This document shows, piece by piece, positions 20,291 to 41,301 of a stretch of 64,000 bases of DNA. Under the pieces are notes generated by a model. The model was not told the origin of the DNA and ran no database searches. It saw nothing but the letters and a program-made list of their open reading frames with translations. The position numbers were made by a program, and so were the translations under genes. This stretch comes from Zygnema cylindricum. Its lineage: Eukaryota > Streptophyta > Zygnematophyceae > Zygnematales > Zygnemataceae. Location: NCBI GenBank assembly GCA_037447655.1, contig JBBHKE010003039.1, positions 1 through 64,000 on the forward strand, given 5' to 3'. Position 1 is the stretch's first letter, and each line of letters begins with the position of its first letter.

Positions 20291-20579
20291 TACCCGATCA
20301 TATTGGGCTCTAGCTTTTCACTCAAGCTTGGTCTAACTCCAAACAAGCTTCAGCCCACTGCGACTCGCTTGTTAACATCAGCAGGTACAACTGAGCCAGT
20401 CATAGGAATCACTAACGAACCGCTCGTCTTCTGGTTCCAGAATGGAACGGCCATGGACTTTGTAAAGATCTTGGTACACGTTGTGGTCACTAAATGTAGT
20501 GAAAATGAATGCCAGTGGGACAATACGTTATATTTCGTATAGGGGGTGGAGTTGACATGCATGATCAGACATTTTCTTA
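20291..20579 (+). pseudogene. Gypsy retropepsin (protease) remnant
   Basis: Reads LGSSFSLKLGLTPNKLQP, then PVIGITNEPLVFWFQNG, and in a shifted frame GGVDMHDQTFSY. This is the layout of the aspartic protease that precedes RT in Ty3/gypsy polyproteins. The catalytic D-T/S-G is not preserved (ILGSS where D(T/S)GSS is expected), and a stop plus frameshift follow. It sits immediately upstream of the methyltransferase on the same strand. Confidence 0.6.
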
Positions 20580-20616
20580 TTAGCCCACTAACTTCATAGA
20601 ACACAAAATCTGCATT

Positions 20617-22957
20617 TTGATAATTTCTGCTAGGAAACCCAGGCTTGTTATGGCGCATTCAGCCACCTTGATACCTGAATTTTCAAAAAATTATGTGGGG
20701 GCAGAAATACTTCATTCATTGTCTGCAGAAGAAATTTTGCTTGATAGTTCTTACTTGCCAAAAATTTTCACTGACCCAGGATTTCTTATAGATACGAGGG
20801 AATTTGATTGCATCTATAACCAAACCTTGTCAATTCCACTTTCTCCAGTCTCTCCTCCAATCCCAATCCCTACATACTCGTCTGGGTTTCTTCCCATTAA
20901 TTGGAATCTGCTCCAATTAAGACCTCTTCCAAATGGATTGGTGATTTTGGACCTCTTCGGTGGAATGGGCACTTCCGTTCTTTCTTGTCTGCAAAATGAA
21001 TTATTAATTCAATTTTATTATTTTGTCGAGGTTGATCCTTTAGCGCGAAAAGCACAAGTACATTATTCTAATCTGTTGCATTCCGAATACCTGCATTTCT
21101 TACCAAAATCTGCATACGAGCATATGCATACGGCCCTCCCACAAGACATCTGGATTGTGGGTAACCATCACTTACTAGAGATTGGGCCGGTTGATCTAGT
21201 TTTTGGCGGATGGGAATGTGAAGGTGTTGAAATCTGTGAAGTATTTTCTAGGTCTGAATTGCTGAGTAGAAAAACAAAAAACGCAAGCAATCTGCCTCCA
21301 CCCCTCTCTCTATCCCCCTTACTTGTTGTAGTCATTGAAGGAGAGAGAGAGAGTAGTGGAGCCATGGGTGCCTCAGCTTTATTAAGCATGACTGAAGAGT
21401 GACTTTAAGTCACTACTAACCAAAGGTTGATTTCGGTCGGTGTCGAACCTCCGACCTGTAGAGCGTGGCGTAGCCGTCTGCTCTAACCAGTTTGTCGTAG
21501 AAATTCACTAGAATATATAGGGTGTGATTACTACTTGAAGTGTGTTACGTCCTCTAAACCGACTAACGGAAATATGAATATAAGGACATATAACTAATAA
21601 AATACAGTGCGAACATGATTCCGCACAAAACAAATGAATCGGACATTTGTTTGGACGGCTAAGATTACATTTTAGGTTTTATCCAACAACGCACATCATC
21701 GTCGAGATCGCGGAGTGATCACTTTGGCTTTTTGTGACGTGGCATGACCTGGCGCCACGTGGAGAGATAACATTTGGTCGCGGGAATTCTAAAGAACCTA
21801 CGGACGAGTAAAAAGGGGGCGCGCGTCCATGTAATAGCCTTGTTGTACATTAGTCGTACAAAAGGTACACCGGAAGTTGTACTTTTTGGTACGGTACAGT
21901 AATATCATTGGTCCGCACTTTGAGTAGATAAGAGTTATTAGAGTGAATTAGGACTTAGTGAATTTTGGGAAAACAATCACCTCTCCCATTGAGGGTTTGT
22001 ACAAAATAGGCATCTTTGCCACCCCATAACTTATCAGCTGGTTGGCCGTTTTCAGTGATTCTTTTTTCTACAGGCTCAAAGGAGTCCAGGCTGCACAGGA
22101 GTGCAGTTAGATTGTTAGTTTTCTCTCTAAGGCAGCAGTGGTTGTGGCTTCAAGTGGGTTAGCGAAAATCTATTTAGAGGTTTCCTAAATTCTGTAGTCC
22201 AATGGAGGACATAAAATTGCATAGGAAATGTCTCGGGTCGGGAAAGGCCTTGGATTAGCAGATCCCCCTACCAAATTATTTTTTGAATTGGTCCGCATCC
22301 TCCATTTTCTGCAAACTTTAGAGCATCGAAAGGGGTATATCTTGGAAAATGTTGAAGCTTATAATGATCCAAGACCTACGATCCTGACTGATTATCAACA
22401 GATCGAACGATTTATTGGTCTGCCCCTTATTATTGATGGCGCTCGCCATGGTTCACTAGCACACCGGGTTCCCTCCAAATTGACAAACCTGATTGATATT
22501 TGTCGACTCCGTGAGGCTAACCAATCAGATTATCCTCCTCATACAGACATTCAGGCTGCCATTCTTCCTTTCTATAAGGTGCAGCCTTACATTCAAAAGG
22601 ACTGTCCCCCTAATTTCAATATCAATGTCCCCAGTCAACCTCTCAAGGTTTATTCCTACCTTAGTTTCTTAACCACATTCGTATGCATTCTGTAATGACG
22701 TTCCTGGCATAATCCGAAACATTCATACCGGTGAGCTCGAAGAGCCTACCTCTACGGAGCAAGAACACTTCTTGCATTTCATCCCTGGCACTACAGCAAC
22801 TTTTGGTCTTACAGAACATCAAAGATGCACTCTATTAGGTCGTGTCATGGACCCTCAGTCTTTGTTTTTTTTTTTCGGTCTTGGGTTTGCTGCTGGTCGC
22901 CACTCTCAGGCACATTCTTCTCAACCAGCTGGGGGGGGGGAATTCATCACTAAGTAA
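20617..22957 (+). pseudogene. C5 cytosine DNA methyltransferase inside the gypsy element, split by a solo LTR
   Basis: Role (family): SAM-dependent methylation of cytosine C5 in DNA. N-terminal half 20617-21224: motif I LDLFGGMGTS, motif II/III FVEVDPLARKA, and VDLVFGGWECEG, where the PC catalytic motif IV of most family members reads EC but the cysteine remains. After a 997-bp solo LTR (21225-22221) the frame resumes with SRVGKGLGLADPPTKLFFEL and motif VI ILENVEAY. The C-terminal part (from about 22684, different frame) has the motif IX/X-like HQRCTLLGRVMDP and a stop at 22955-22957. Domain order is the normal I to X, closest by eye to DNMT3-type enzymes. A frameshift lies near 22690. It lies between gypsy protease and RT, so it is retrotransposon-borne, not a host gene. 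Confidence 0.8.
21225..22221 (+). mobile_element. Copia-family solo LTR within the methyltransferase
   Basis: Starts TGTTGAAATCTG and ends AAAATTGCA, aligning over its length with the LTRs of copia-1. No internal domain. Flanks GAAGG and TAGGA are an imperfect 5-bp duplication. Removing the LTR and one flank copy keeps the methyltransferase in frame across the join. Confidence 0.75.
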
Positions 22958-22981
22958 ATCGTTGCGTCCCACTCTGAAAGG

Positions 22982-23973
22982 TGTTGAAAATCACTAGATT
23001 TATGGGAGATATTTACTAGGTCTTAATTAAAATAAAAATGAAAAGCAAAGGCAGTCTGCCTCCACCTTCTCCCTCTAGCCCCCATACTTGTTGCAGTCAC
23101 TGAAGGAGAGAGAGGGCGGTGGAGCCATGGTTGCCTTAGCTCCATAGGCAGGGCTTAAGAGTGACCTAAGTCACTCTCAACCAAAAGGGTTGAGGCCGAC
23201 AGGACGCGAACCTCCGACCGGTAATGCGAGGCATAGCCGTCAACCCTTACCAGTCTGTCGTAGTAGTCCGTTAGGATACATAGGGCTCGACAGCTATTTA
23301 AGCAAAAGATAGACGACTAATCCGAATAACAGAATTACAAATAGGATACATAGAAACAAGTTGGGGAATTAAGTGCGCACGAAACAAATGTACCGGACAT
23401 TTGTTTTTGAACGGCTGGGAATTAAAGCCGGTTTGGATCCAACGGCCTGCACCATCGCCGGAATCCCTGAATAGCCGTTTTGGCGGTTTGCCGATGTAAC
23501 ATGACCTATCGATATAGGGCACGATATCATTGAGAAGCAGGAATCTCGGGAGCATAAGGGCAAGTCCAAAAGAGACAGACGTCCACTCCATGGCATTGTC
23601 GTACACTAGCCGTACATAAAGTATATCGGCCATAGTACTTGTCTGTACTGAACAGTCTTCTGATTGGTTCGTACATCAGTAGATAGGGGTTGTGAGAGGG
23701 GTTTAGAACTTAGAGGATTGAGGAGGTAGCCGCCTCTCTCCAACAAGCTTGTATATATATTGGCATCTTTGCCACTTGATAATTAATCGTCTGGTAAGGC
23801 GTTTTCAGTGATTCTTTTTGCTGTGGACTCAGGGGAGTCCAATATGCACAGGGGTGCAGACAAGTAACCTATTTGTCTGTTAGGGTAACAGTTGCTCTCG
23901 TTGAAAGTGGGTTAGTCAAAAACTACCTAGAGGCTTCCTCATTCTTGGTCTAAATGGAGGACACAGAATTGCA
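22982..23973 (+). repeat. 5' LTR of copia-1
   Basis: 992 bp, TG...CA. Contains an antisense tRNA-like sequence at about 23189-23263 (minus strand: GGTTCG-containing B-box-like segment) and CT-rich and GA-rich blocks. Pair of 29423-30416. Confidence 0.88.
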
Positions 23974-23988
23974 AGTTATGGGCCCACC
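23974..23988 (+). promoter_or_regulatory. Primer-binding site matching the anticodon half of initiator tRNA-Met
   Basis: AGTTATGGGCCCACC directly follows the 5' LTR. GTTATGGGCCCA is complementary to the anticodon stem-loop of initiator tRNA-Met, not to a tRNA 3' end. Drosophila copia and yeast Ty5 are known to prime this way. The inverted copia-2 has the equivalent site at 38289-38303. The ATG in this site is in frame with gag. Confidence 0.7.
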
Positions 23989-24903
23989 CTCTAGGGTGCC
24001 CATTTTCAACGGATCTGGATTCATTTACTGGGAAGCTATGATGACAGGGGCATTATGTGAGAAACGATACTGGGGTATTGTTAGTTGACAAGTGAAACGT
24101 CCATCAGAAGGAACTCCACCAAGGTTTGGAGGAGTGAGGTTTTCTGCAGCAGGATCTGCTCCAACAGAGGAGACAGATGATGGGGACAACAGTGTGTCTG
24201 AAAAAGGGAAAGGAAAGGAGACACCTCTCACTCTTATTGCCATGGCATCCAGAGTGGTGGCCGTGAAGACCGAGGAAAACGACATTCAGATGTAAGAGTA
24301 CACCAATATGAATGCAAGGCACTTCATTCTAAGGCACCTCACCCAAGCGTTGGCAACTTCTCACCTTCAAATCTTCAAGGCTGAGGAGTTGTGGATGACC
24401 TTAGTGGAGATCTATAGAGCTGGCACTATTCAAGAGCTTCAGCTGGCTGAGCAAAGGCTGATCAGTTACACTTTCAAAGGGGGAAGATGTTGGACTATTG
24501 CACCGATCTCTCTTGTCTATACATGGAGATGGAGAGTGCCGGATGGACAGACACTATGAAGATGAAACTTAACACTCTCATCATGACGTTGCCGGAGGAG
24601 TATGAAAATATAGTGTACCAAGTGCAACAAATGGATGATAGTGCTTGGAAGTGGAGCACCGTGGTTCAAATGATACTCGTACAGGAAAACACTATTGAGA
24701 TCCGAAGAGGAGGAAAGAGCATACAAGCTCTAGCTGCCGGAACTAACCGGTGGAGGAAGGATCCGAAGAAGCCATACCACAGCCTCAAAGGGGAGAAAGA
24801 TGAATTTGGAGAACCGAGGACTCCAAAGGGCCTTTGTCATTTCTGCAAAAAGTCGGGGCACTTTATAGCTGATTGCATCAAGCTATCGGAGCTCAGGCTC
24901 TAA
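23978..24903 (+). pseudogene. Copia-1 gag
   Basis: Begins at the ATG inside the primer site (MGPPSRVPIFNGSGFIYWEA). Internal stops (TGA near 24086, TAA at about 24293) and a frame change break it. A UBN2/DUF4219-like gag region includes WMTLVEIYRAGTIQEL, and the nucleocapsid zinc knuckle CHFCKKSGHFIADC (CX2CX4HX4C) lies near 24837-24878. The capsid protein would package the element RNA; this copy cannot make it intact. Confidence 0.8.
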
Positions 24904-27290
24904 GAAAATCGTGGAGGTGGTTTTTTCGGAGGAAAGAAAAAAGCACTTGTGGTCACACAAGTGAAAAGAGAGACTGAGGAGTACGAGTCCTCCGAGGAGG
25001 AGGATGGGGAGCTTCTTCTTGACGAGAATCTAGAGGAGAAGGAGATCCCTCAAAAACAGAAGTGTGACCTTGGAGCCATTCGAGAAGCACCAGAGGAGGG
25101 ATGGATCATCGACTCAGGTGCATCCATGCATATGTGTCGTGACAGGCACCTCTTCACTAAGCTAAGAAAGATCCCTACTATGGAAATAGAGTATGGGGAT
25201 GGGAGAGTAGTTACCACAGATCTAGTGGGATCAATAGATATGAAAGTCTTAGTGGAGGGTAAGACTTCTATTCTCACCTTGTCACATGTGCTCTACATTC
25301 CTCAGTTGAGTAAGAATCTTCTGTCTACTTCTGTATTAGATGACAAGGATTTTGATACCTTCACTAGAAAGGGAGTCTTTACAGCTAAGTATGGAGATGA
25401 AGTCTACTTCACAGCTGATAAGGGTAGCCAAGGAATGTTTAGGCTTAACTTGAGTAATGAAAAGAAGAGTGCTTACTATGGTGGTGTTCCAAGCTTGATG
25501 ATCTGGCATAAGCGTTTGGGACATGTGCATTTTGATATATTGAGGGAAATGAAGAAGCTGGGTGTAGTAGAGGGCATTCAGTTTGGGGATAATGAGATGA
25601 TGGATGATTGTAGTGGCTGTGCCCAAGGTAAGGCTCACAGACTTCCTTTTCCCAAAACTGCCACATATAGAGGTGAGAAAGTATTAGATCTGGTCCACAC
25701 AGATATCTGGGGACCAGCTAGGGTGCCTTCAGTTGGGGGGAAAAGGTATATGTTGACAATTACGGATGATTGGTCCAGATATTCCAAAGTCTACTTCCTG
25801 AAAAAAAGTCTGAAACACCAAAATACTTTAAAGAATACAAAGCCTGGAGTGAGAAATTGCACGGAACCCCATTAAGAGAATAAGGAGTGATAATGGGGGA
25901 GAGTACACCTCTAACCAGTTTGAAGATTACTTGAGAGATGAGGGAGTTCAACAACAGAAAAAACTGTACGAAATAATCCAGAACAAAATGGGGTAGCTGA
26001 GAGGTTAAACCAAACTTTGGGATATAGTGTGTGCAGCATGTTGGCAGATAAGAAAATAGGAAGAAGATTTTGGGCAGAGGCCATGAACTGTGCTAACTAC
26101 ATTAAGAATAGAGTCCTCACAACAGCTGTTAAAGGAATGACCCCTTATGAGAGATGGGTTGAAAAGAAACCGAATGTTTCTCACTTGAAAGTATTCGGTA
26201 GTCAAGTTTACAGTCTTGACACAGATAAGAAAAACTGGAAACTAGATGCTAAAGGGAAACCGAGATATTTTGTGGGATATGATGAGGATGTCAAAGGATA
26301 TAGAGTCTATGACTTAGCTAAACAAGATATCATCCTGGTAAAACATCTAGTTGTAATGGATGAATGGAAGTCTTTTGATCCCTTCAAATACACTAAGAAA
26401 ATCAGAATCAGCTTTGAGTCCGAGAGTGAGGAAGACTTAGATCTTCCCAAAAGGGACACTAGTGAAAACATGATTGCAGATCTAGGGGAGATAAAATATG
26501 GGGGAGATATACCAAAATCTCCTTATATTCCTAAACCCTTTGAGGAGAGAGAGGAGGAGGAGTCAGAACCGGTTCCCATGGATAGGGGAGCTGCTGAGAG
26601 AGTTCGCAGGAATCCAAGGCTTCCCTCTATTCCAGCTTCGGACTTTGAGGGAGGACAGGGGAGCAGCAAAAGGCTTCATGGAAAACAGGCTGCTTGCAAG
26701 GTAACAAAGCTTTCTCATCCAGATGAGCCTCAGTTATACTCGGAGGCAATGGACAGTCCGGAGAAAGAAAGGTGGGTCAGAGCCATAAATGATGAGATGG
26801 CTTCAATCAGGGATGCAAATACTTGGGAGCTAGTGGACTGTCCACCAGATAGAAAACCCATTGGGTGTAAATGGGTATTTAAACTGAAACTGAATCCAGA
26901 TAACACCATTGAGAGATTTAAAGCTTGGCTGGTGGCAAAAGGGTTCACTCAAAAAGAGGGTATAGACTATGAGGAGACCTTTGCTCCCGTAGTTCGATTC
27001 CCATCTCTAAGGATTCTCCTTAGTCTAGCAGCAGCGGAAGACATGGAAATTCACCAGATGGATATCAAAACCGCCTTCCTCAACGGTGAACTAGAGGAAG
27101 AAATCTTCATGCGGCAACCAGAAGGTTTTGTACAGGAAGGAGAGGAAAGCAAAGTCTGCACACTTATAAAGTCCTTATATGGACTATGTTGGATTGGCAC
27201 GTGAAGCCGGTCCAATACGGGGTAGAATATAGAATATCCATACTCGAGCCGCCCGTAAGAAAAGGGTACGGACCCGCCAGTCTCTACATC

Positions 27291-27361
27291 GAGCTGGTGG
27301 CACAGTGGTAGTGCGTTCGCAGCTGAAGTGAAAGGTCCCAGGTTCGAACCCTGGCCGGCTC
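27291..27361 (+). other. tRNA-like gene in TRIM LTR 1
   Basis: Full cloverleaf by eye: acceptor GAGCTGG/CCGGCTC (7 bp, one G-U), D stem GCAC/GTGC with loop AGTGGTA, anticodon stem TTCGC/GTGAA with loop AGCTGAA, T stem CCAGG/CCTGG with loop TTCGAAC. A-box-like TGGCACAGTGG and perfect B-box GGTTCGAACCC. A T4 run follows within a few bases, a Pol III terminator. Position 33 is G rather than T, so decoding function is doubtful. Confidence 0.8.
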
Positions 27362-27576
27362 AATTTTCCCAAGTGTGGGACATGCCGAATCTCGGATTTC
27401 TAAGAAATCTAACATGGTATCAAAGCCAGCGGGATTGCGGATGGTTTGACCGGCTTTCCCGTGAGGGGGGGTGTTGGATTGGCACGTGAAGCCGGTCCAA
27501 TACGGGGTAGAATATGGAAATATCCATACTCGAGCCGCCCGTAATAAATGGGTACGGACCCGCTAGTCTCAACATC

Positions 27577-27647
27577 GAGCTGGTGGCACAGTGGTAGTGC
27601 GTTCGCAGCAGAAGTGAAAGGTCCCAGGTTCGAACCCTGGCCGGCTC
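27577..27647 (+). other. tRNA-like gene in TRIM LTR 2
   Basis: Same cloverleaf as LTR 1 except the anticodon loop reads AGCAGAA. All four stems are retained although the surrounding LTR is the most diverged of the four. Confidence 0.8.
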
Positions 27648-27861
27648 AATTTTCCCAAGTGTGGGACATGCCGAATCCCGGATTTCTAGGAAATCTAACA
27701 TGGTATCGGAGCCAGCGGGATTGCGGATGGTTTGACCGACTTTCCCGTGAGGTGGGGTGTTGGATTGGCACGTGAAGCCGGTCCAATACGGGGTAGAATA
27801 TGGAATATCCATACTCGAGCCGCCCGTAAGAAAAGGGTACGGACCTGCCAGTCTCTACATC

Positions 27862-27932
27862 GAGCTGGTGGCACAGTGGTAGTGCGTTCGCAGCTGAAGT
27901 GAAAGGTCCCAGGTTCGAACCCTGGCCGGCTC
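27862..27932 (+). other. tRNA-like gene in TRIM LTR 3
   Basis: Identical by eye to the LTR 1 copy, with the same T4 run downstream. Confidence 0.8.
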
Positions 27933-28146
27933 AATTTTCCCAAGTGTGGGACATGCCGAATCCTGGATTTCTACGAAATCTAACATGGTATCGGAGCCAG
28001 CGGGATTGCGGATGGTTTGACCGACTTTCCCGTGAGGTGGGGTGTTGGATTGGCACGTGAAGCCGGTCCAATACGGGGTAGAATATGGAATATCCATACT
28101 CGAGCCGCCCGTAAGAAAAGGGTACGGACCCGCCAGTCTCTACATC

Positions 28147-28217
28147 GAGCTGGTGGCACAGTGGTAGTGCGTTCGCAGCTGAAGTGAAAGGTCCCAGGTT
28201 CGAACCCTGGCCGGCTC
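28147..28217 (+). other. tRNA-like gene in TRIM LTR 4
   Basis: Identical by eye to the LTR 1 copy, with the same T4 run downstream. Confidence 0.8.
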
Positions 28218-29422
28218 AATTTTCCCAAGTGTGGGACATGCCGAATCCCGGATTTCTAGGAAATCTAACAGACTAAAGCAGGCCCCTAGACAGTGGAATA
28301 AGAAACTAGATGAGTTTCTTACCAGTCTAGGGTATATATTCGGATCAGTTCTGACCACTCTATTTACATGTTTCAGGATGAAAATAGTGTAATTTCTATT
28401 GCAATTTATGTGGATGATTTGCTCGTATTGAGTATGTCTATGGAGAAGATAAATAGGTTAAAGAAAGATCTGGGAAGTAGATTTGACATGAAGGATTTAG
28501 GAGAGGCTAAATATGTTTTGAAAATTCAAATGGAAAGAGATAGGGAGAAGAGGATCATCAGACTTACACAAAAAGAGGCTATAGGAAATATGCTAGAGAA
28601 ATTTCACATTGAGAATGCAAACAGTTGTACCACTCCCATGGACCTAAAGAAAGTCAGTGATGGGAATGTAGAAGGAGATGTGATAATGCTAGATGATCAG
28701 ATAAGTCCAGAGGAGAGGCAGTTAATGAAATCTATTCCTTACAGACAGGTTGTAGGAAGTCTGATTTACTTTATGAATTGTACCAGGCCTGACATAGCTG
28801 CAGCAGTTCGAGTCGTTAGTAGGAGTCTTAATGATCCTAGAAACAAAGACTGGGAGGCAGCCAAGAGGGTAATGGGATACCTGGTGGGAACTAGGGATCT
28901 ATGGTTGCATTTGGGAGGAGAGCACACTGTGATCACTACTTGGAGTGATGCCAGTTATGAGGATGCACCTATGAGAAGATGCACTTCTGGGTATGTATTG
29001 TATGTGGGGGAAGGTGCTTGTTGTTGGAGTAGCAAGCAACAAAAGGTTGTTGCTCAGTCCACTATGGAGGCTGAGTACATGGCCTCTTGTTCTGCTGTGA
29101 AAGAGTTGATGTGGGTGAAGTCCTTGTTGCAAGAATTGGGGTACATGAAGAAGGGAGTACATGAAGTGTTTTGTGATAATCGGGTTGCAATTGCAATTGC
29201 AGCTAATCCAAAACATCATTTCAAAGCTAAGCATATGGATATAAGATTGAGCTTTGTGAGGGGAAAAGTGGAAAATAAAATTGTGAAGTTGGTGTATAGG
29301 AGTGAAAGGGGAAATGGTGGCTGATATGATGACAAAGCCTGTGCCATCTCCCAAACTAAAGTATTGTAGAGAAAAATTAGGATTAAAACAAAAAATAAAA
29401 TTAGACTAGAAAATAAAGGGAG

Positions 29423-30416
29423 TGTTGAAAATCACTAGATTTATGGGAGATATTTTTTAGGTCTTAATTAAAATAAAAATGAAAAGCAAAGGCAGTCTGC
29501 CTCCACCTTCTCCCTCTAGCCCCCATACTTGTTGCAGTCACTGAAGGAGAGAGAGGGCGGTGGAGCCATGGTTGCCTTAGCTCCATAGGCAGGGCTTAAG
29601 AGTGACCTAAGTCACTCTCAACCAAAAGGGTTGAGTCCGGCAGAACTCGAACCTCCGACCGGTAGGGCGAGGCATAACCGTCAACCCTTACCAGTCTGTC
29701 GTAGTAGTCCGTTAGGGTACATAGGGCTCGACAGCTATTTAAGCAATAGATAGACGACTAATCCGATTAACAGAATTACAAATAGGATACATAGAAACCA
29801 GTTGGGGAATTAAGTGCGCACGAAACAAATGTACCGGACATTTGTTTTTGAACGGCTGGGAATTAAAGCGGGTTTGGATCCAACGGCCCGCACCATTGCC
29901 GGAATCCCTGAATGGCCGTTTTGGCGGTTTGTGGATGTAACATGACCTATCGACACAGGGTAGGATATCATTGAGAAGCAGGAATCTCGGGGAGCATAAG
30001 GGCAAGTCCAAAGGAGACAGACGTCCACTCCATGGCCTTGTCGTACACTAGCCGTACATAAAGTACATCGGCCATAGTACTTGTCTGTACTGAACAGTCT
30101 TCTAACTGGTTCGTACATCAGTAGATAAGGGTTGTGAGAGGGGTTTAGAACTTAGAGGATTGAGGAGGTAGCCGCCTCTCTCCCAACAAGCTTGTATATA
30201 TATTGGCATCTTTGCCACTTGATAATTAATTGCCTGGTAAGGCGTTTTCAGTGATTCTTTTTGCTGTGGACTCAGGGGAGTCCAATCTGCACAGGGTTGC
30301 AGTCAAGTAACCTATTTGTCGGTTAGGGTAGCAGTTGCTCTCGTTGAAAGTGGGTTAGTCAAAAACTACCTAGAGGCTTCCTCATTCTTGGTCTAAATGG
30401 AGGACACATAATTGCA
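29423..30416 (+). repeat. 3' LTR of copia-1
   Basis: 994 bp, pair of 22982-23973, followed by the AAAGG target duplication. Carries the antisense tRNA-like segment at about 29629-29703. Confidence 0.9.
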
Positions 30417-30421
30417 AAAGG

Positions 30422-32278
30422 GACCACATTTCAATGTTTCCTCTTTCTTCTCCAATTCCACCAGTTCCGGATTCTCTATCAACGATTTCCTCAATCCTAG
30501 CCATATGTCCTGGTCTATCCTTGCAGTCACGGCTGTCCAGTCTGCAAGTTCCATGGATAATCCACCCACTCCTCATTCGACTGTTGCTTTTCCAACACGC
30601 AGCTACAATCATTCGTTTAATTCCCTTAAACAAACACCTGTAGCTTACGAGTTTGGGCAAACGCTTATCGTAGATGAGCAGTTGGCCTTTGCTTAAGCTA
30701 TGCGGCGATGACAAGTGAGAATCCTGATGCTCCAAAATGGAAATTGGGCACCAATATAACAAATGCTCAACAAGAGTTATTGAACTACGTAGTTTTACGG
30801 AATGTCGATGCCTTTGTTTTTTCAATGAACGATTTGGGTTGTCACACCGCTTTTAAGATGTCGATAGATCTCGAAGATGACCGCCCAATATTTAAACCAA
30901 AACATCGTCTGTCAGAAACCGAATGGGAAATGGTAGACAAGCGATGTGTTGAGCTAGAAGAAGTTCGCCAAATCTATCGGTTTGACTGCACATTTGCAGC
31001 TCCCACTGTCATGCCTCGGAAAAAAGATTCCGAAGGTAATTTTACTACATGTCGAATGTGCGGTGATTATCGTGAACTAAATGCTAGGATCGTTCAAGAT
31101 CGTCATCCCATGCCCCTCGCCGAGGATGTATTTGACCATGTAGGCGGGGCGAAGTATTTTAGTATCTTTGACCTCTGTCAAGGATTCAATCAAATTGAGA
31201 TAGAGGAAAAGGACCGGCATTAACATCCTTTTGGGGTAGTGACTACCAATGGGAATGGGCCGTAATGCCGTTCGGACTGAAAAATGCTCCCGCGATATTT
31301 CAAAAATTCATGGACTCAGTTCTCGGAGGTTATAAGTTTGCTAGGTGTTACATCGATGACCTCATCATTGCCTCCGCTACTATCGAAAAGCACGGGGCTC
31401 ACATCGAATGGGTATTGAATTCATTAAAAAATGTTGGATTAACGTGTCATTCCGCAAAATGCACCTTTGGATCCAAGGGAGTGCCTTACCTTTGCCATTT
31501 TATCTCAGCTGAGGGGATCACTCCTCTCGAAGCAAAGGTAGAGGTAATCAGTAAATTGCCGGCTCCCACAGACTTGATAAATTTGCGAGCGCTTCTCGGG
31601 CTTGCTAATTGTTATCGCAGGTTGGTACCTAATTTTAGTAGAATTGCATCTCCTTTAAACGACCTTCTCAAGAAAGAAGTGTCCTTCATATGGGGTCGCG
31701 ATCAGATTCCCGCATTTCAAAAATTTAAAACCGCCTTATCAAGTGCTCCCATTCTCCGCCCCCCCAATCACAAACTCATTTTTTGTCTCCAGACAGATTT
31801 TGGATAACCGGGAATGGCTGTCTTTTTGACACAAATGGAGTTGAGCCGAGAGGAATATGTAATTGCTTACGCCGGTAGAAGCAAAAATCCTGCTGAATCG
31901 AATTATAGTAGTTACGAAGGGGAATGTCTAGCCGCGGTTTGGGGAGTCGTCCACTTCCGTCATTATTTGTACAAAAAGCCTCTCACCCTTCTAACTGACC
32001 ATCAGCCCTTACATTGGTTGATGATTAACGATAAGCTTTCCGTGAAGCTAGCCCGATGAGCTTTAATTTTGCAAGGATATGACGTTGAAATAATTCACCG
32101 ACCTGGTCTGCTTAGTCTAAACGCGGACGACATTTCCCGAAATCCTTTGCCCCGAACGACGGATAACGGAGTTCGACAGGATTTCGATGACAACGATATT
32201 CCCGTGATATCAGTGGGTTCTTTTCTTACTTACTCTTTGACCGCTATTCCGAACCCTCGTCCTGCCTCGGATCCTTAG
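30422..32278 (+). pseudogene. Gypsy reverse transcriptase and RNase H
   Basis: Continuation of the gypsy element after copia-1. A linker (30422-30694) precedes RT. RT shows APTVMPRKKDSEGNFTTCRM, MCGDYRELNARIVQDRHPMP, FSIFDLCQGFNQIEIEEKDR, MPFGLKNAPAIFQKFMD and the catalytic CYIDDLIIAS near 31348, then GLANCYRRLVPNFSRIASPL. RNase H shows YSSYEGECLAAVWGVVHFRH and LLTDHQPLHWLM; its first catalytic Asp is in FCLQTDFG. Stops and frameshifts occur near 31221, 31805 and 32057. This is the Ty3/gypsy order (RT-RNase H before integrase). Confidence 0.9.
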
Positions 32279-32404
32279 CTGGATGGGCCTCTCATTCTTT
32301 TCCTCTCCTCCCAGACCTTTCAGGTCCGACCCTACCTCAAACGAATAACACAGAGTGAAAAAGAGAGTCAAAATTACCTTTGGCTCGAAGGATCTGAAGT
32401 TCAA

Positions 32405-33445
32405 TTGCTGGCAAATGGAAGCTATAGACACGTCCCTTGTCCTACCGAGCGGCTTTCTCTTATTGAGCAAATTAACACCGAGCTTGGTCACTACGGCACC
32501 AAGCGGACGTTAAGCATAGTTCAGGCACGGTATCGGTGGTTAGGATTGCAAGCCGTTGTTGCTGCCATTCCACACAAGTGTGCCACCTGCGACTGTCTCC
32601 AAACTTCTTTCTCTAATCGGCAGACTACGTTCCAACCTCTACCAATTAGGGGTTTATCTTATCGGTGGTCAGTCGATCTGGCCGGACTTTTTCCCATCTC
32701 ACGTAGAGGAAAACAAAACATCATGATTATGATTGAAAATTTCACTAAGTGGGTTGAAGTCCTGGCTCTACCTCAGAAGACAACAAAGTTAACCACCGCA
32801 AACTTTTAAGGAACATGTCCTTATGAGATACAGTGCCCAAGCCAAGGTCGTTACGGATCAAGGTACAGAATTTCCGAGGGAATTTCAAGAGATGCTTGAT
32901 GAGGCTCTCATCCATCATCGTCGTACTAATCGCGATCACCCTTAGGCCGATGGCCTTGTTGAATGGGCAGTCCAGACATTTAAGCGTAACTTGCGTAAGC
33001 ATTGCTTAGAAAAACACATTTCAGTTTGGGACGAGTCCCTCGGCTACATTACCATGGGATATCGCATGTTAGTTCAAGCTAGTTTGGCTACTTTCAGCCT
33101 ATATTATGTTTTATTTGGGCGACAACCGCTACTCGGGCGCACTATGCAGAAAGCTGCAAGTTTTCCGCTTCCGCTGATGTCTAGCACTATTTTTTTGGGA
33201 GAACTCCCCCGTCGTGCTTTGCTTTTTGCCCGTGAAATGCCCATGGCTTTTGATAATCTGCAGATTGCCCAGCATCAAGACACACTTCGGTTTGCCACCA
33301 CTCGAAGCAACAGTTATAGGCCCCAACAGAAGCCCTATCGGGTAAGAGACTATGTGTATTTTTGCAAGGAATCTTTTGACACGTTGGACACGGATGTTTC
33401 AGCACATTTCCTACGTATTATCGAGGTGGATCCGAAGGAAATGTT
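32405..33445 (+). pseudogene. Gypsy integrase
   Basis: N-terminal zinc segment with CATCDCLQT. The core begins near YRWSVDLAGLFPISRRGKQN (first Asp), then VVTDQGTEFPREFQ near 32850 (second Asp) and, after a TAG stop near 32944, ADGLVEWAVQTFKRN (Glu). The C-terminal part has VRDYVYFCKESF. A frame break occurs near 32810. The frame runs into the copia-2 insertion at 33446, and the sequence continuing it lies at 40301. Confidence 0.88.
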
Positions 33446-34434
33446 TGCAATTCCAATTTAGGAAGCCTCTTGATAGTTGTTAAATAACCCACTTTCAATG
33501 GCAACCACTGCTCCCCAAGGAAACAAGCCGACAATCTAATTGCACCCCTCTGCAGCCAGGACTCCCTTGAGTCAGTAAAAAAAAGAATCTCTAAAAACGC
33601 CCAACCAGGCGATAAGTTATCGGGTAGCAGAGATGCGAATTTTATACAAACTCTCAAAGATAGAGAGGACCATCTACCTAATTTTTCCTAAGTCCTAGTT
33701 CCCTCTCACAACCCCTATCTACTGAATGTACGAACCAATGCGAACACTATATAGTACCAAAAAGTACTATTGCCGATGTACTTTCTGTACGGCCTCCGTA
33801 CGACAAGGCCATTAAGCAGACTCCTGTCCACTTTTCAATCGTCCGTACGTTCTTTGGAATTCTCGTGACCGAATGTTATCTCTCCACGTGGCGCCAGGTC
33901 ATGCCATGTCACAAAATGCCAAAGTGACCATTCCGTGATCTCGATGATGATGTGCCCCGTCAGATAGAATTTAGTATCTCATCTCAACCGTTAAAATACA
34001 TGTCTTTCTAACTTCTTTCGTGCGGAATCATATCCGCACTGTATTGAACTTGTTCCATGCATCTATGTTTATATTTCCGTTAATCTGAATTTCTACCGTA
34101 ACATTGTTTAATTATATGTCAAACCGTATATACCCTAGCGAACTACTACGACAGACCGGTTAGAGCGAATGGCTACGCCATGCTCTACCGGTCGGAGGTT
34201 CGAGTCCTGCCGGACTCAACCTTTTTGTTGAGAGTGACTTAGGTCACTCTTCAGTCCTACATTCGTGGAGCCGAGGCAGCCATGGCTCCACTATTCTCTC
34301 TCTCTCCCCTTCAGTGACCACAACAAGTATGGGGGATGGAGAGAGAAAGTGGAGGCAGACTGCCTGCGCTTGTTTTTCTTTTCTATCTATTTAGACCTAG
34401 AAAATACTATAAACACCTTTAGTTAATTTCAACA
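33446..34434 (-). repeat. 3' LTR of copia-2
   Basis: About 989 bp; on the minus strand it starts TGTTGAAATTAACT and ends AATTGCA. At 34148-34221 the plus strand (antisense to the LTR) holds a tRNA-like segment with A-box-like GGTTAGAGC and perfect B-box GGTTCGAGTCC, the best preserved among the copia LTRs. Confidence 0.85.
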
Positions 34435-34449
34435 CTCCCCTTATTTTCT

Positions 34450-37380
34450 AGTCTAGTTTTACTTTTTCTTTCAACCCGCATTTTTCCCTACAATACTTTT
34501 ATTTGGGAAAGGGCACAGGTTTGGTCATCATGTCTGCAACTATTTCTTCATCAGGTGTATACACAAGATTCAAAATTTTGTTTTCAACTTTTTGTCTTAC
34601 GAAGCTCAATCTTAATTCCATATGTTTATCACAAAAGACTTCATGCACTCCCTCCTTCATATACCCCAATTCTTGCAACAAGGATTTCACCCACATCAAC
34701 TCTTTCACAGCAGAGCAAGAGGCCATATACTCAGCCTCCATAGTAGACTGAGCAACCACAATTGTTGCTTACTGCTCCAACAACAAGCACCTTCCCCCAA
34801 ATACAACACATACCCAGAAGTGCATCTTCTCATGGGTGCATCCCATAACTGGCATCACTCCAAGTAGTGACATCAGTGTGCTCCCCTCCCCAATGCAACC
34901 ATAACTCTCTAGTTCCTACTATATACTGAAACTCTGAGACCTCCATAAGTCCTCAGAGTGGACAGCTTCCAAGAAGCCTCTAGGATAATCCTGACCCCTT
35001 TGTGTTTAAGCAAAAATAACTGCCACCCTGGCAGACAAAAACTTTGACCAAGTATATTAGACTTCCAACAACCTTTTTGTAAGGGATAGACTTCATAAAC
35101 TCTCTCTCCTCTGGACTCATCTAATCATCTAAGATTATCACTCCTCCTTCTACACTCTCATCACTTACTTTCTTCAAGTCCATGGGAGTGGTACAAATGT
35201 TTGCTTTCTCCATCTAGAATTTCTCAAGCATATTTCCTATTGCTTCTTTCTGAGTGAGTCTAATGATCCTTTTCCCCCTATCTCTTTCAAATTGAATTCC
35301 CAAAATATATCTTGCCTCCCCTAAATTCTTCATATCAAATATGCTTCTAAGATCTTTATTCAACTTATTGATCTTTTCTAAAGACTTACTTAACACCAGC
35401 AGATCATCCACATAATCACACCATCCTCGTTTTCAAACATATAGATAGAATGGTCAGAGCTGATCCAGATATATCTTAGTCGAGTAAGAAAATTATGGCT
35501 CTAATCTATCTGTCATTTTTTGGGCTATTCACTGTCTCCAAGTATGTCTGAGTCTCATCAAGATGAGATAGCTTAGTTACCTTATAAGCAGCTTGTTTCT
35601 CTTGTATGCTTTTGCTGCTCCTTCTTCCTCCCTTAAACTCTGAAGCTGGAATAGAGGGATTTCTTGGGTTTCTCCTTAGTGTCTCATCGTCTCCCCTATC
35701 TATGGAAGTCGGGTCTGGTTCCTCCACTTCTGTCTCCTCGAAGTCTATACGAATATGTGAGGTATCCGGTAGCTCTCCTGTATCTTGGATCTCCCTTGAA
35801 TCTGCAATCACAATCTCACTCATGTCCCTTTCGGGAAAAACAACGTTTTCCTCACTTTCAGACTCAAACCTGATTCTTATCTTTTTAGTATATTCGAAGG
35901 GATCAATTGACTTTCCTTCATCCATGATAATTAGGTGTTTGACCAGAATGATATCTTGCTTTGCTAAGTCATAGACTCTATATCCCTTCACATCCTCATC
36001 ATATCCCAAAAAATATCCGGGTTTTCCCTTAGCATCTAGTTTCCAGTTCTTCCTATCTGTGTAAAGACTGTAAATTTGGCTACCGAATACTTAAAGGTGT
36101 GAGTTATCTGGATTCCTTCCAACCCATCTCTCATAAGGTGTCACTCCATTTACACCTGAGGTAAGGACTCTATTCTTAATGTAGTTGGCTTAATTCATGG
36201 CTTCTGCCCAAAATCTCTTTCCAATTTTCTTGTCAGCCAACATACTTCATACATTATCTCCAAGTGTTCGGTTTAACCTATCACCTACTCCATTTTGTTC
36301 CGGATTATGTGGTTAAGTTTTCTGGTGCTGAACTCCCTCATCTCTTAGGTATTCCTCAAACTGGTTAGAGGTATATTCTCCCCAATTATCACTCCTTATT
36401 CTATAATGGGGGTTCCATGCAACTTCTCACTCTAAGCTTTATATTCTTTGAATTAAACTGGTGTTTCATACTTTGTTTTTAGGAAGTAGACTCTAGAATA
36501 TCTGGACCAGTCATCAATAATTGTCAACATATACCTCTTCCCTCCAACTGAGGGTACTCTTGCTAGTCCTTAGATATCTGTGGATTAAATCAAGTACCTT
36601 CTCCCCTCTATATGTGGCGGCTTTAGGAAAAGGAAGTCTGTGAGCCTTTCCTTGGGCACAGCCACAACAATCATCCACCATTTCATTTTCACTAAACTTA
36701 ATGCCTTCCACTACACAAAGCTTCTTCATTTCCCTCGACCTATCAAAATGCACATGCCCCAACAGCTTATGCCAAATCATCAACTTTGGGACACCAATAT
36801 AATAAGTATTCTTCTTTTCATTACTAAGGTTAAGCCTAAACATTCCTTGGCTACCCTTATCTGCTGTGAAGTAAACTTCATTCCCATACTTAGTTCTAAA
36901 GAATCCTTTTCTAGTGAAGGTATCAAATTCTTTTTCATCTAACAGAGATGTAGAGACAAGATTTTTACTCAGTTGAGGAATATAGAGCACATCTGAGAAA
37001 GTGAGTATAGAAGTCTTACCCTCCACTAAGACTTTCAGATCTAGTGATCCCACTAGATCTGTAGTAACCACTCTCCCATCCCCATACTCTATTTCTACAG
37101 TAGGGATTTTCCTTAGCTTAATGAAGAGGTCCGTATCACGACACATATGCATGGATGCACCTGAGTCGATGATCCATCCTTCCTGTGGAGCTTCTTGAAT
37201 TGCTCCAAGGGCACACTTTTGTCTTTGAGTGATCTCCTTCTCCTCCAAACTCTCTTCAAAAAAGAGCTCCCCGTCCTCCTCAAAGGACTCGTCCTCGGTG
37301 TCTCCTATCACCTTTATGACCAAAAGTGCCTTTTTCTTCCCTCCGGAAGAACCCCCTCCACGGTTCTCTTGGTACCTCAT
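34450..37380 (-). pseudogene. Copia-2 pol
   Basis: From 37380 downward: protease WIIDSGASMHMC, pre-integrase segment WHKLLGHVHFD and CCGCAQGKAH, integrase core broken around 36500-36000, variable linker with ERDMSEIVIADS (35506-36009), RT fragment with MDDLLVLSKSLEKIN (35214-35411) and RNase H STMEAEYMASC (34499-34759). Much of the RT front half is missing. A foreign LTR-end segment (34928-35040) interrupts the RT/RNase H junction. Non-functional. Confidence 0.85.
34928..35040 (-). repeat. Copia LTR 3'-end segment embedded in copia-2 pol
   Basis: Nearly identical to the terminal part of the divergent LTR at 41302-42351 (shared TGAAACTCTGAGACCTCC and GGATAATCCTGACCCCTTTG on the plus strand). 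It replaces sequence that in copia-1 encodes the RT/RNase H connection. Confidence 0.65.
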
Positions 37381-37399
37381 CTTCGACAGCTTGACAAAA

Positions 37400-38300
37400 T
37401 CTGTGATAAAGTGTCACGGATTTTTGCACAAATAACATAGGCCCTTTCGGGGCCTTGGTCCTTTAGGCTGAACTATTTCTCCTTTGTATGGTTTTTTCGG
37501 ATCTAGTCTCCACCAGTCCCCTCCCCTGTTAGAGCTCGAACATTCTTTCCTCCTCTCCTGATCTCAATCGTATCCTGATCTCCTGCATAAGTATCATGCG
37601 GACCACTGTATTCCACTTCCATGAACTATCAGTCATTTCCTGTACTCGGTACACTATATTCTCATACTCGTCAGGTAACTTCATGATAAGAGTGTTAACC
37701 TTCATTTTCATTGTACCTGTCCATCCGGCACTTTCCATGTCCATATACAAGCAAGAAAGATCATTACAGTAGTCTAACATCTTTCCCCCTTTGTAAGTAT
37801 AATTTCCCAACTTTTGCTCTGCCAACTGGAGTCCCTGGATCGTACCTGCTCTATAGATCTCTATCAAACTCACCCACTACTCCTCGGCCTTGTAAACGTG
37901 AAGGTGGGGAGTTGCCAAAGCTTGTGTGAGGTGTCTCAAAATGAAGTTCTTGGCAGCCATGTTGGTGTCTTCCCACATTTGAGTGTCAGTCTCCACGGTC
38001 TTTACGATCGCCGCTCCAGGATTCGTCGGAATAGGAGCAATAAGAGCACGAGGTATCTCTTTTTTTTTCCCTTTTTCGGACACAATGTTGTCCCTATCAT
38101 CTTCCTCCTCTGTTGCAGCAGATGTTGCTACAAAAAACCTTATTCCACCAAATCCCGAAGGTGTTCCCTGAGATGGATGTTTCACCAGTCCAATAACAAT
38201 ACCCCAATATCGTTTTTCACACAAAGCCCCTATCATCATGGCTTCCCAATAGATAAATCTTGATCCATTGGAGATGGGCACCCTAAAGGGTGGGCCCATA
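37400..38300 (-). pseudogene. Copia-2 gag
   Basis: Starts MGPPFRVPISNGSRFIYWEA from the ATG within the primer site, followed by ALCEKRYWGIVIGLVKHPSQ (the copia-1 copy has a stop in this stretch). The second half (37529-37873) reads MSLIEIYRAGTIQGLQLAEQ in another frame. The zinc knuckle is decayed near 37410-37440. Confidence 0.75.
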
Positions 38301-38303
38301 AGC

Positions 38304-40295
38304 TGGAATTTTGTGTCCTCTATTCAACTACAGAATTCATGAAGCCTCTAGATAGTTGTTAACTAACCCACTTTCAATGGAAACCACAGCTGCCCAAGAA
38401 AATAAGTAGACAATTTGATTGTATCTCTGTACAGCTTGGACTCCCCTGAATCCGTAGGAAAAAGAATCTCTGAAAACGCCCAACTAGGCAATAAGTTATA
38501 GGGTGGCAAAGATGGCAATTTTATACAAACTCTCAAAGAGAGAGAGGACCATCTTCTTGATTTTTCCTAAGTCCTAGTTCCCTCTCACAACCCCTATCTA
38601 CTGACTGTACGAACTAATCACAACACTGTAGGGTACCAGAAATTACTACTGTCGATGTACTTTCTGTATGACCTCTATACGACAAGGCCATTAAGCAGAC
38701 GCGTGGCCACTTTTCACTCCTCCGTACGTTCCTCGGAATTCTCGTGACCGAATGTTATCTCTCCACGTACCACCAGGTCATGCCATGTCACAAAATGTTG
38801 TTCTACAACCATAGTTGCACGTGAAGGTCCACCAGTAGTAGTGGATGTAGACATAGACTTCAGCAAAAGCTACCAGAAATCCTATCAAACAACCAACTTT
38901 GATATAACACAGAAAGTGCTCACAATTTCCAATTATCACAAAAATCTACAATAATACAGTATCACATGCACTCTGCCAATTCCCAAAATTGCAGCCCAAT
39001 TGAACTAGTATACCATAAGAAACAACACTTGGAAGTTTCCCAAAAATTGTCCCTTAGAGAGCTAGATCTCAATACTGGATTGATTACAATTTTGGCTAAG
39101 TCCTAACTTTATACTCACAGGGAGTATCTACTAAAAACTAACTAATCCAATGTCTACACCTGGAAGAATAGTACTGTACTACACTATGACAAGGTACCGA
39201 ATCAATACACTATTTGTACTGAGAGTACGTCCAAACCATATTTGGCTACTAAACAAAAATATACTTAGTGGAACACTACATTCTAATCCGCTAAGTTAAA
39301 ACTACTGTGTTTTAGATATGCAAATAGATTCGCGTACAGTAGTGTCAAGGTGCTTAGTCAGCAGTGGATGCTAGCGTCCAGCGGACTGTTGATGAAGTGC
39401 TCCAAGTCACTTGAGATCGTACAAAGTGATGAGTCACTTGTGGTCCCACGTGAATCTCGTCCGTTCACTCGATTCACATCTACGGTCGTCGTTGAATGTT
39501 GTACCACTATCTTCGCGGACAATCGGTTGAGTCTCCGCCCGTCCGATTCTTCAACATTATTCGTTCGATGTGTGACGCGTGGTGAACTGTGTCGGCGCTT
39601 TCCCGAAAAACCCGTAGGATGTTCATTTTCTAACGCGTGTCCCTGCAGAAGTAGAATACACTCAAAAGTACTACTTTTACTGTCACACTAAATGAGGTAA
39701 GTATTACAACTTACCTAGATCAAAAATATTCTAAGTACTTGGTCTCTCCTCACAGCTTTGTTTACTGAGTATTAAGATTTGTTATTTCAACACAAAATAC
39801 CAAAGTGACCATTCCGTGATCTTGGCGATAATGTGCGCCGTCAGATAGAATTTACTATCTCATCTCAACCGTAATTTGTTTTGTGCGAAATCCTATCCGC
39901 ATTGTATTTAACTTGTTCCATGTATCTATGTTTACATTTCCGTTAATCGGAATTACTAGTGTAACATAGTTAAATGATATGTCAAACCCTATATACCCTA
40001 GCGAACTACTACGACAGACCGGTTAAAGCAAATGGCTACGCCATGCTCTGCTGGTCGGAGGTTCAAGTCCTGTCGAACTCAACCTTTTTGTTGAGAGTGA
40101 CTTAGGTCACTCTTCAGTCCTACATTGGTGGAGCTGAGGCAGCCATGGCTCCACTATTCTCTCGCTCTCCTTCAGTGACTACAACAAGTATGGGGGGTGG
40201 AGAGAGAAGGTGGAGGCAGACTGCCTGCGCTTGTCATTCTTTTCTATCTATTTAGATTTAGAAAATACTATGAAAACCTTTAGTTAATTTCAACA
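38304..40295 (-). repeat. 5' LTR of copia-2 interrupted by a solo LTR
   Basis: LTR halves 38304-38795 and 39793-40295 align with 33446-34434. A degraded antisense tRNA-like segment is at about 40009-40083. Confidence 0.82.
38796..39792. mobile_element. 997-bp solo LTR of a third family inside the copia-2 LTR
   Basis: TGTTGTTCTACAACC...TTATTTCAACA with perfect CAAAA target duplication (38791-38795, 39793-39797). The uninterrupted site is visible in the sister LTR near 33912. No ORF of note. Sequence is unlike the copia-1/2 LTRs. Confidence 0.78.
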
Positions 40296-40300
40296 ATGTT

Positions 40301-40620
40301 ACGATTACAAGGAGCACACACACGGACTTTCCGAGAGCCCTCCAAGAATTGTGCGCCATGTTGTTTACCAGATTTGTCGCAGGATATGGATCCCTTGCGG
40401 ATACCAATTACGGAGGCGACAACATATACCTTTTGCCATCGACCGGACGGGGAAAATACCATGTTACTTTGTGATCATTACAATCAGGGGTTTCACAAGA
40501 AGTGTTTGGTGCCACCATTATTGGTCGTTCATTATGGTCACTAGTTTTGTCACGGATGTCGCGAGCTTTCAGTCGTGTTGGCCAACTCCTCTGCCGGCTA
40601 AAGAGCTAGGGGGGGGGAAT
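40301..40620 (+). pseudogene. PHD-like finger at the C-terminal end of gypsy pol
   Basis: Continues the integrase frame after copia-2. Reads CHRPDGENTMLLCDHYNQGF, then HKKCLVPPL and, past a TAG, FCHGC. This is a PHD finger framework (Cys4-His-Cys3, with MLLCD and the PPL turn). Three key positions look mutated: Tyr where the first Cys is expected, Tyr in DHYNQG where Cys is expected, and TAG where the conserved Trp (TGG) is expected. All are explained by G-to-A changes. PHD fingers read histone tails; here it would take the place of the chromodomain of chromoviruses (inference). A G8 run follows near 40610. Confidence 0.72.
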
Positions 40621-40812
40621 AAACCAACCTGACCATAACCAGCTAAGTCATTGACCTTTCTTATTCTCCCACCTTGCCTGTAGTTTTATTTATCTATTTT
40701 TCACTTTTATGTCTTATTTCATTCACAATAGCTTGTCATCATTTAGGTTAAAGTGGAGCACAATTGATGATATGGCATGCATCTTCATGTTATTTAACGT
40801 ATGCACGATAGC

Positions 40813-41301
40813 TGTCATGCCGCATCTCGTCGGCAATTTTAATTGTTTATAATTAGGTGTTATGATAGGCGGTCGCCGCCCTAATTTGTGTTTGTATGTT
40901 ATTTGGGTTTCGTTGGACTATACATACTTACATTCCACAGTCGCGCCGACTATACATATTTATGTTTCCCGTAATTTTCTTTGACAACGAGTTGCACCCT
41001 GCATACTTACATTGTCCGTAATTTCCGTCGACGACTTATTTTCGCGTTCGCGTCTGTACATGTAATCTTAACGTACCTGCATCGCCGGAATTTCCGCCGA
41101 CGACGAATTCGATTGTTTTGCGTGAGGGAGCATCTCGACCGTCGACGCGGATTTATACTTAGTTCGAAATATGGCATTCGGACCGTTGACACAACGTATA
41201 GACAAGTCGACTATCAGTTTTGACAATGCAGCGCGATTGGACAAATTTAAGTCGTGAACTATTTGGAGGTTCACGCATTCACATGTAGATAGGAAGGCTT
41301 T
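40813..41301 (+). repeat. Truncated 3' LTR of the gypsy element
   Basis: Starts TGTCATGCCGCATCTCGTCG; matches 15492-15839 and 18202-18323. Cut at 41301, where copia-derived sequence begins. Confidence 0.8.

Follow-up and report, generated by a model that had tools for sequence, protein, structure and literature searches.

A gypsy-type retrotransposon family of Zygnema cylindricum with a putative DNMT3-like methyltransferase and a PHD finger at the end of its integrase

The 64-kb stretch of Zygnema cylindricum contig JBBHKE010003039.1 analysed here (the window) contains one decayed gypsy-type retrotransposon, on the + strand at about 15491-44289 including inserts. Its parts follow each other in the order protease (PR) remnant, C5 DNA methyltransferase (MTase), reverse transcriptase (RT), RNase H, integrase (IN) and PHD finger, and are interrupted by two copia elements and one solo long terminal repeat (LTR). 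It is very probably an old and now decayed copy from a large gypsy-type family that carries both an MTase and a PHD finger, and of which some copies have moved recently; the functional steps that we infer are set out below. The polyprotein of the family consists of a Gag zinc knuckle, protease, DNMT3-like MTase, RT, RNase H, DDE integrase and PHD finger, and is encoded between split repeats.

The conclusion is carried by sister copies in the same genome (352,776,454 bases in 2689 contigs, including the window). A search with the second MTase piece of the window gave 1093 candidates, of which the best 150 were scored (worst E-value 4.4e-52), while the integrase-PHD piece gave 905, again with the best 150 scored (worst E 1.6e-40). 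Among these best 150 of each, at least 57 MTase matches have a PHD match 2.5-6.5 kb downstream on the same strand, and 49 of the 57 pairs are spaced 3.5-4.5 kb apart. As controls, the same 150 MTase matches gave one pairing on the wrong side and one on the opposite strand. At least 16 of the 25 best MTase matches, a set that includes the window, are paired with a PHD; the window itself is not counted as paired, since with its inserts the PHD lies 18 kb from the MTase.

Strong matches or long frames guided the choice of the twelve 9.9-kb loci that were compared, which therefore do not sample the family at random. The window's own lineage (lineage I) accounts for eight of them and a sister lineage (lineage II) for four. 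The order PR-MTase-RT-IN-PHD was found, at least in part, in all eight lineage-I loci, with only partial IN and PHD in L024, and partial PR and IN in L026. Locus L018 has a single open frame of 2395 amino acids containing DNA_methylase at 942-1078 (E 2e-11), RVT_1, RNase H, H2C2, rve and PHD at 2338-2382 (E 1.5e-9), together with a weak zf-CCHC, the Gag zinc knuckle, at 449-464 (E 0.0086); zf-CCHC exceeds the cut-off in L027 and L023. The PR of L018 was identified by likeness to other copies and not by Pfam, and Asp_protease_2 is matched upstream of the MTase in L022, L025, L027, L023 and L026, at E-values just under the cut-off (2.2e-4 to 1.5e-3). In lineage II, two of the four loci encode MTase, RT, IN and PHD together in a single frame of 1520-1525 amino acids, and the other two have the MTase alone or the MTase and a piece of RT; no PR was found in this lineage with the lineage-I query. 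The window pieces are collinear with L018, L022 and L025 at 54-86%, and all of them except PR can be compared with lineage II, at 28-48%.

The window is heavily nested and its gypsy pieces are broken, as would be expected if MTase, gypsy pol and PHD were unrelated fragments joined by nested insertions. Against this, the same order recurs in every lineage-I locus, once in a single open frame, and the pairing of at least 57 among the best 150 compares with one and one in the controls. Such a collage has next to no chance of being right, and we regard it as refuted by the sister copies. The first-pass annotation of this DNA had proposed that an MTase between PR and RT and a PHD at the integrase end belong to one element, and had named beforehand a genome search for sister copies as the check. 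The search came out in its favour: the outcomes that it had listed as refuting were not found, and all eight loci have the MTase between PR and RT and the PHD at the integrase end.

The order PR, RT, RNase H, DDE integrase, found with Pfam and by likeness between copies, is that of Ty3/gypsy (Metaviridae-type) elements. Tyrosine recombinase (PF00589) was not matched at E ≤ 0.01 in the frames scanned, rve and H2C2 integrase being present instead. Similarly, no chromodomain was matched at this threshold in L018, L019, L021, L022, L020, L023, L025 or L027, where a PHD is present instead. The repeats of copy C1344 are identical over 931 bp and the MTases of L018 and L020 agree in 1063 of 1065 nucleotides, which implies recent movement of the family. 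A genome search with Pfam DNA_methylase gave 782 candidates, of which 123 were scored, all of these over the curated cut-off. Ordinary methyltransferases of the host may be among those counted, an example being L016, which reads GGPPCQG and matches neither lineage.

The features of the element in the window are as follows, where TSD is a target-site duplication and A and B are the repeats described below.

15487-15490, + strand: 5' TSD, CATA (from the sequence)
15491-15840, + strand: repeat A1, left part, beginning TGTC (88-89% to 40813-41162 and 42875-43224)
15841-18198, no strand assigned: DNA-transposon-like insert in A1, bearing TTAG at each edge and short inverted termini (absent from A2)
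18199-19065, + strand: repeat A1, right part (95.3% to 43221-44092)
20294-20580, + strand: PR remnant (57-69% identity to the PR region of L018, L022 and L025)
20644-21240, + strand: MTase piece 1, with motif I DLFGGMGTS and motif IV GGWECEG (profile positions 3-78, E 0.011; 54-79% to the three lineage-I copies)
21225-22221, + strand: solo copia-type LTR splitting the MTase (69-76% to the window copia LTRs; ends TG...CA)
22225-22692, + strand: MTase piece 2, with GKGLGLADPP, ENVEAYND and GSLAHRV (profile positions 78-137, E 1.4e-9; 68-80% to the three lineage-I copies)
22691-22945, + strand: MTase piece 3 in another frame, with motifs IX-X by eye (72-84% to the three lineage-I copies)
22982-30416, + strand: nested copia element 1, TSD AAAGG (LTRs 96.1%)
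30678-31804, + strand: gypsy-type RT in two frames (RVT_1; 73-86% to the three lineage-I copies)
31691-32080, + strand: RNase H (RT_RNaseH E 3.1e-25; RT_RNaseH_2 E 4.1e-24)
32279-33440, + strand: integrase with H2C2, rve and C-terminal region, in two frames (Integrase_H2C2 E 1.5e-7; rve weak, E 0.018; 69-86% to lineage-I copies)
33446-40295, - strand: nested copia element 2, TSD ATGTT (from the target duplication)
40305-40600, + strand: integrase C-terminus with PHD finger at about 40428-40562 (67-82% to the three lineage-I copies)
40600-40617, + strand: purine-rich tract ending in nine G (from the sequence)
40614-40810, + strand: repeat B1, then GC (90% to B2)
40813-41302, + strand: repeat A2, first copy, truncated (repeat comparison)
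42406-42874, + strand: second copy of the PHD end and B1, a partial duplication (99.8% over 441 bp)
42875-44092, + strand: repeat A2, second copy, complete (repeat comparison)
44093-44289, + strand: repeat B2, ending GACA (repeat comparison)
44290-44293, + strand: 3' TSD, CATA (from the sequence)

The domain series from PR remnant to PHD on one strand, as first annotated, is upheld by likeness to the sister copies and by profile, Pfam and PDB matches. The coordinates given for it, 20291-40620, do enclose the domains, but the ends of the element lie outside them, at 15491 and 44289. The annotation had also expected the domains to be collinear between matching LTRs. PR, MTase, RT, IN and PHD are indeed collinear, but what surrounds them are split direct repeats and not LTRs.

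In the window copy itself, no Gag was found with Pfam, and Pfam gave no match for the PR remnant in the frames scanned. MTase pieces 1 and 2 were recognized with a C5-MTase profile at the E-values listed above, the other window frames scoring 3.4 or worse (813 frames of at least 40 amino acids in all); the profile was made from eight phage enzymes chosen for matching these same pieces, and is thus partly circular, with somewhat flattering E-values. Pfam alone is weak here, with E 0.047 for piece 2 and nothing for piece 1, and piece 3 compared with the phage motif X alone is not significant (154 of 2000 shuffles were as good). The window PHD reaches 21.3 bits in Pfam (E 2.8e-4) against a curated cut-off of 24 and contains one in-frame stop, while its match to PHD fingers in the PDB has E 8.5e-7. 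The doubt left by the weak Pfam scores for the MTase and PHD is removed by the sister copies.

The TSDs claimed earlier for the two nested copia elements, AAAGG and ATGTT, were both confirmed. The solo LTR separates two MTase stretches that follow directly on each other in the profile (positions 3-78, then 78-137), and the final few codons of MTase piece 1 already lie inside it; the 5-mers flanking it, GAAGG and TAGGA, do not match. The RT region of nested copia 1 contains four tandem units of about 285 bp (27187-28342) with one tRNA gene each, three for Gln (CTG) and one for Leu (CAG), at 53.6-53.7 bits. Divergence between the LTR parts of nested copia 2 is 8-14%, which equals or exceeds that of the A and B repeats of its gypsy host (5-12%), though copia 2 is necessarily younger. 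At 42406-43364 there is a partial duplication of 40372-41302, comprising PHD, B1 and part of A2, with identities of 99.8% over PHD-B1 (441 bp) and 95.7% over the left part of A, and with a copia-like remnant between the two copies. Parts of the DNA-transposon-like insert in A1 recur near 62453-63536. Outside the element, at about 48000-62000 on the minus strand, is a SERCA/ECA-type calcium-pump gene in separate exons, the sequence of which presumably resembles the plant ECA1 type; the host of the element appears to belong to the green-plant lineage.

The repeats of the window element are arranged as A1 - internal region - B1 A2 B2, with no B attached to A1. Two full-length terminal LTRs, as in Ty3/gypsy elements, are thus found neither in the window nor in four of the seven sister copies for which flanks were fetched, which have B1-A2-B2 at the 3' end and the full plan. 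In these four the A and B pairs agree, respectively, at 100% (over 931 bp) and 99.6% in C1344, 99.5% (over 1475 bp) and 99.5% in C1915, 97.8% (over 1186 bp) and 99.5% in C1374, which is of lineage II, and 80% and 95.7% in C449. Of the other three, C1407 showed the B pair only, nothing clear was seen in C544, and C2577 has just a window-like A and B1, lacking either pair itself. All five complete copies (the window and the four sisters) have an A that starts TGTC and a GC between B1 and A2, and the G run ahead of B1 is also present in C1344, C1374, C1915 and C449. B1 ends GACA in the complete sister copies and GATA in the window. C1374 (L035) has one more B-like copy, at 31308-31632, upstream of its B1-A2-B2 block.

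The window element has TG...CA ends, with CATA directly outside both; two random window 4-mers would agree with a probability of 0.0048. A B2 end of GACA followed by an exact 4-bp TSD is found in three of the five complete copies, namely C1344 (TTGG), C1915 (CCCT) and the window. It is concluded from the ends and TSDs that the integrase appears to join these ends, while the repeats follow a DIRS-like plan. The element is not a DIRS element, which would have a tyrosine recombinase and no TSD; here there are an rve/H2C2 integrase and TSDs. Repeat A is rich in CpG in the window, with an observed/expected ratio of 2.03 (15491-15840) and 1.43 (42875-44092), compared to 0.52-0.53 for the copia elements and 0.74-0.75 for the flanking sequence. 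This was rejected as a family trait, since the ratio is 1.39-1.64 in C1915 and C449 but 0.87 in C1344 and 0.76 in C1374.

Selection was estimated from the ratio of non-synonymous to synonymous substitution rates (dN/dS) in seven lineage-I loci, giving 21 pairs per domain, of which 13-17 were saturated at silent sites. The median over usable pairs was 0.19 for MTase (7 pairs, range 0.05-0.49), 0.11 for PHD (8 pairs, 0.09-0.28), 0.11 for RT (3 pairs), 0.09 for IN (5 pairs, up to 0.75) and 0.09 for PR (7 pairs, up to 0.68). A single pair, L018-L026, gave 0.19 for MTase, 0.05 for RT, and 0.09 for both IN and PHD. The lineage II MTase has 0.26 (9 pairs, with L015 and L019 counted once as they are one locus). 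From these sequence comparisons the ratios suggest constraint on both MTase and PHD, in what is a small sample.

The best PDB relatives of the MTase, searched with one copy per lineage (L018 and L019), are DNMT3A and DNMT3B. The E-values for DNMT3A are 8.9e-11 (L018) and 1.3e-14 (L019), compared to 0.0019 and 3.8e-5, respectively, for HhaI. By eye, motifs I, IV, VI and VIII follow the canonical order, and the enzyme is classed on sequence as DNMT3-like. Motif IV is G-W-E-C-Q-G or G-S-E-C-Q-G in all eight 9.9-kb lineage-I loci (GGWECEG in the decayed window copy) and G-W-P-C-Q-G in six out of six distinct lineage-II loci, so that the Pro-Cys typical of DNMT3 is present in lineage II but not in lineage I. 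Neither form was matched in L013, another stretch of lineage I, 3.4 kb long. A DNA word for W-E-C-Q-G plus a middle-T codon has 190 exact matches in the genome (reversed control 0), and a word for W-P-C-Q-G plus a middle-A codon has 244 (reversed control 3); the two words end in different codons, and other genes may contribute to the second count.

No Pro codon can become GAA or GAG with fewer than two substitutions, neither of them C-to-T, from which it follows that Glu-Cys is inherited and not the result of simple decay. It could be argued on this basis, and from the consistency of Glu-Cys in the eight loci and 190 word matches while lineage II keeps Pro-Cys, that the MTase of lineage I has ceased to be a standard methylating enzyme. 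It would then be a module that binds DNA or cDNA, or an enzyme of altered chemistry, retained for packaging or to block methylation by the host. We consider this possible, though on balance doubtful: L018 retains the catalytic Cys, the Glu of ENV/ENI, the S-adenosylmethionine (SAM) motif and the AHR motif, and none of the seven usable pairs has a dN/dS as high as 0.5. Outside this genome, viral contigs scanned with RT, MTase piece 1 and integrase, and prokaryote genomes scanned with RT, gave no relative. One viral contig match (L001) was rejected as a coincidence, because its gene list looks like that of a T4-like phage and the match consists of the shared word ENVEAYND.

A PHD with the C4HC3 framework lies over the Pfam cut-off in all six lineage-I frames scanned (L018, L020, L022, L023, L025 and L027). 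In lineage II it was below the cut-off in both frames scanned (E 0.0044 and 2.4e-4), and is weak and divergent. The nearest solved relatives of the L018 PHD are PHF12 (3.6e-17), KDM5/Lid (1e-12), BAZ2B, WSTF and PHF21A, several of which we take to bind the unmodified H3 tail. PHD fingers that read H3K4me3 carry a Trp ahead of the zinc-binding His, where the L018 PHD has Gly-Phe. Given relatives of this kind and Gly-Phe instead of Trp, the likeliest ligand of the PHD would be unmodified H3.

PHD fingers can also act as general protein-binding modules, and the PHD might therefore serve in something other than site choice, for example particle assembly, nuclear retention or shielding from silencing. 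The weak and divergent match in lineage II would be in keeping with this. Its location at the C-terminus of the integrase is, on the other hand, the place occupied by the chromodomain in chromoviruses, and its dN/dS is 0.09-0.28 in eight usable pairs, so that we give such a role a limited chance, on the unlikely side.

Chromoviruses are gypsy elements with a chromodomain at the integrase C-terminus. The Zygnema element resembles them in having a module of histone-reader type at this point, but differs in that the module is a PHD. CR1-like long interspersed nuclear elements with a PHD are likewise retroelements that captured a PHD; these are non-LTR elements without integrase or MTase. The closest published system is KnitGypsy-Dnmt3 of Klebsormidium nitens, described in passages of de Mendoza et al. 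(2018; PMC5890265) as a gypsy element with DIRS-like repeats and a DNMT3 in its Pol frame; the first annotation had mentioned retrotransposon-borne methyltransferases from Klebsormidium and Symbiodinium. According to the same passages, it shares with the Zygnema element the gypsy domain set, a DNMT3 within Pol, the A-coding-B-A-B repeats (found here in the window and four of seven sister copies) and purifying selection on the MTase, with Ka/Ks < 0.2 in KnitGypsy-Dnmt3. An MTase-bearing gypsy with split repeats is therefore already published, although a PHD and a Glu-Cys motif IV do not occur in these passages. As far as these passages describe KnitGypsy-Dnmt3, the differences here are the PHD that ends the integrase, the Glu-Cys of lineage I, and three copies with TGTC...GACA ends and 4-bp TSDs.

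The common repeat plan and the DNMT3 in Pol (PMC5890265) could mean that we are dealing with an ordinary KnitGypsy-Dnmt3 element, whose PHD may already be present in the published figure; the terms PHD, plant homeodomain and chromodomain have no occurrence in the main text of that paper, figures and supplements aside. We consider this explanation unlikely. Klebsormidium has a smaller genome, with a higher G+C content, than the host of the window element, a contrast that also speaks against it. SymbioDIRS-Dnmt3 of dinoflagellates, for which passages of PMC5890265 report de novo CG methylation demonstrated in yeast, similarly has a DNMT3 in Pol and split direct repeats, but uses a tyrosine recombinase where the Zygnema element has a DDE integrase and PHD. 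DNMT3s within retrotransposons of streptophytes and dinoflagellates are mentioned in part of PMC12344493, with Copia and DIRS families named, and according to a passage of PMC6338049 land plants have no methylase-bearing transposons. Among the titles and abstract openings listed in literature searches on PHD fingers in gypsy elements, retrotransposons or integrases, which did not cover preprints and most subscription papers, no gypsy element with both MTase and PHD was described.

We return to the reading of the element as one of a family carrying both domains, and to what they might do. The integrase would join the start of A and the end of B to host DNA, as supported by the ends and TSDs. 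The PHD fused to it would bind histone H3 tails, probably at the unmodified N-terminus, and could thereby place the integration complex on chosen chromatin. The MTase, made as part of the same polyprotein, would probably methylate the new cDNA or the landing site, an idea that comes from passages of PMC5890265. New copies would then bear a mark set by the element itself; both self-methylation and PHD-guided integration are inferences.

The ADD domain of animal DNMT3 reads H3. The element might thus possess a complete read-and-write kit, with an integrase-fused, H3-reading PHD and a DNMT3-like enzyme in one polyprotein that recreates the logic of animal DNMT3, and with one lineage having a Glu-Cys motif IV unlike the Pro-Cys of the C5 enzymes compared. 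This is tentative, and we put it somewhat below an even chance. Several observations weigh against the functional reading and the regularity of the family. The ligand class suggested for the PHD is derived from the names of its relatives and from general knowledge. Glu-Cys in place of the usual Pro-Cys could mean altered or lost catalysis. CpG sites show no significant excess of A1-A2 transitions (Fisher p 0.15-1.0 over 7 comparisons), so that the decay carries no sign of self-methylation. In yeast the KnitGypsy-Dnmt3 MTase gave no methylation, according to passages of PMC5890265, whose authors draw no conclusion from this since human DNMT3B was likewise inactive. Besides the saturation noted above, restricting dN/dS to pairs with dS < 1 raises most medians, to 0.34 for MTase (4 pairs), 0.28 for PHD (4), 0.70 for IN (3) and 0.34 for PR (3), with RT at 0.11 (3). 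Finally, just four of the seven copies with both flanks have the complete repeat plan, and two of the five insertions have no exact TSD: counted from GACA, three of four bases agree in C449 and none in C1374, where the end of B2 is itself uncertain, as likeness to B1 continues past GACA for two bases in C449 and one base in C1374.

The family makes it possible to ask, in a testable form, whether MTase-bearing transposons set the chromatin state of new insertions and do not merely suffer it. Being large, with recent copies, with Glu-Cys and Pro-Cys lineages and with a PHD on the integrase, it offers natural comparisons. It is also an integrase-bearing, TSD-making element with split repeats that are otherwise known from tyrosine-recombinase elements.

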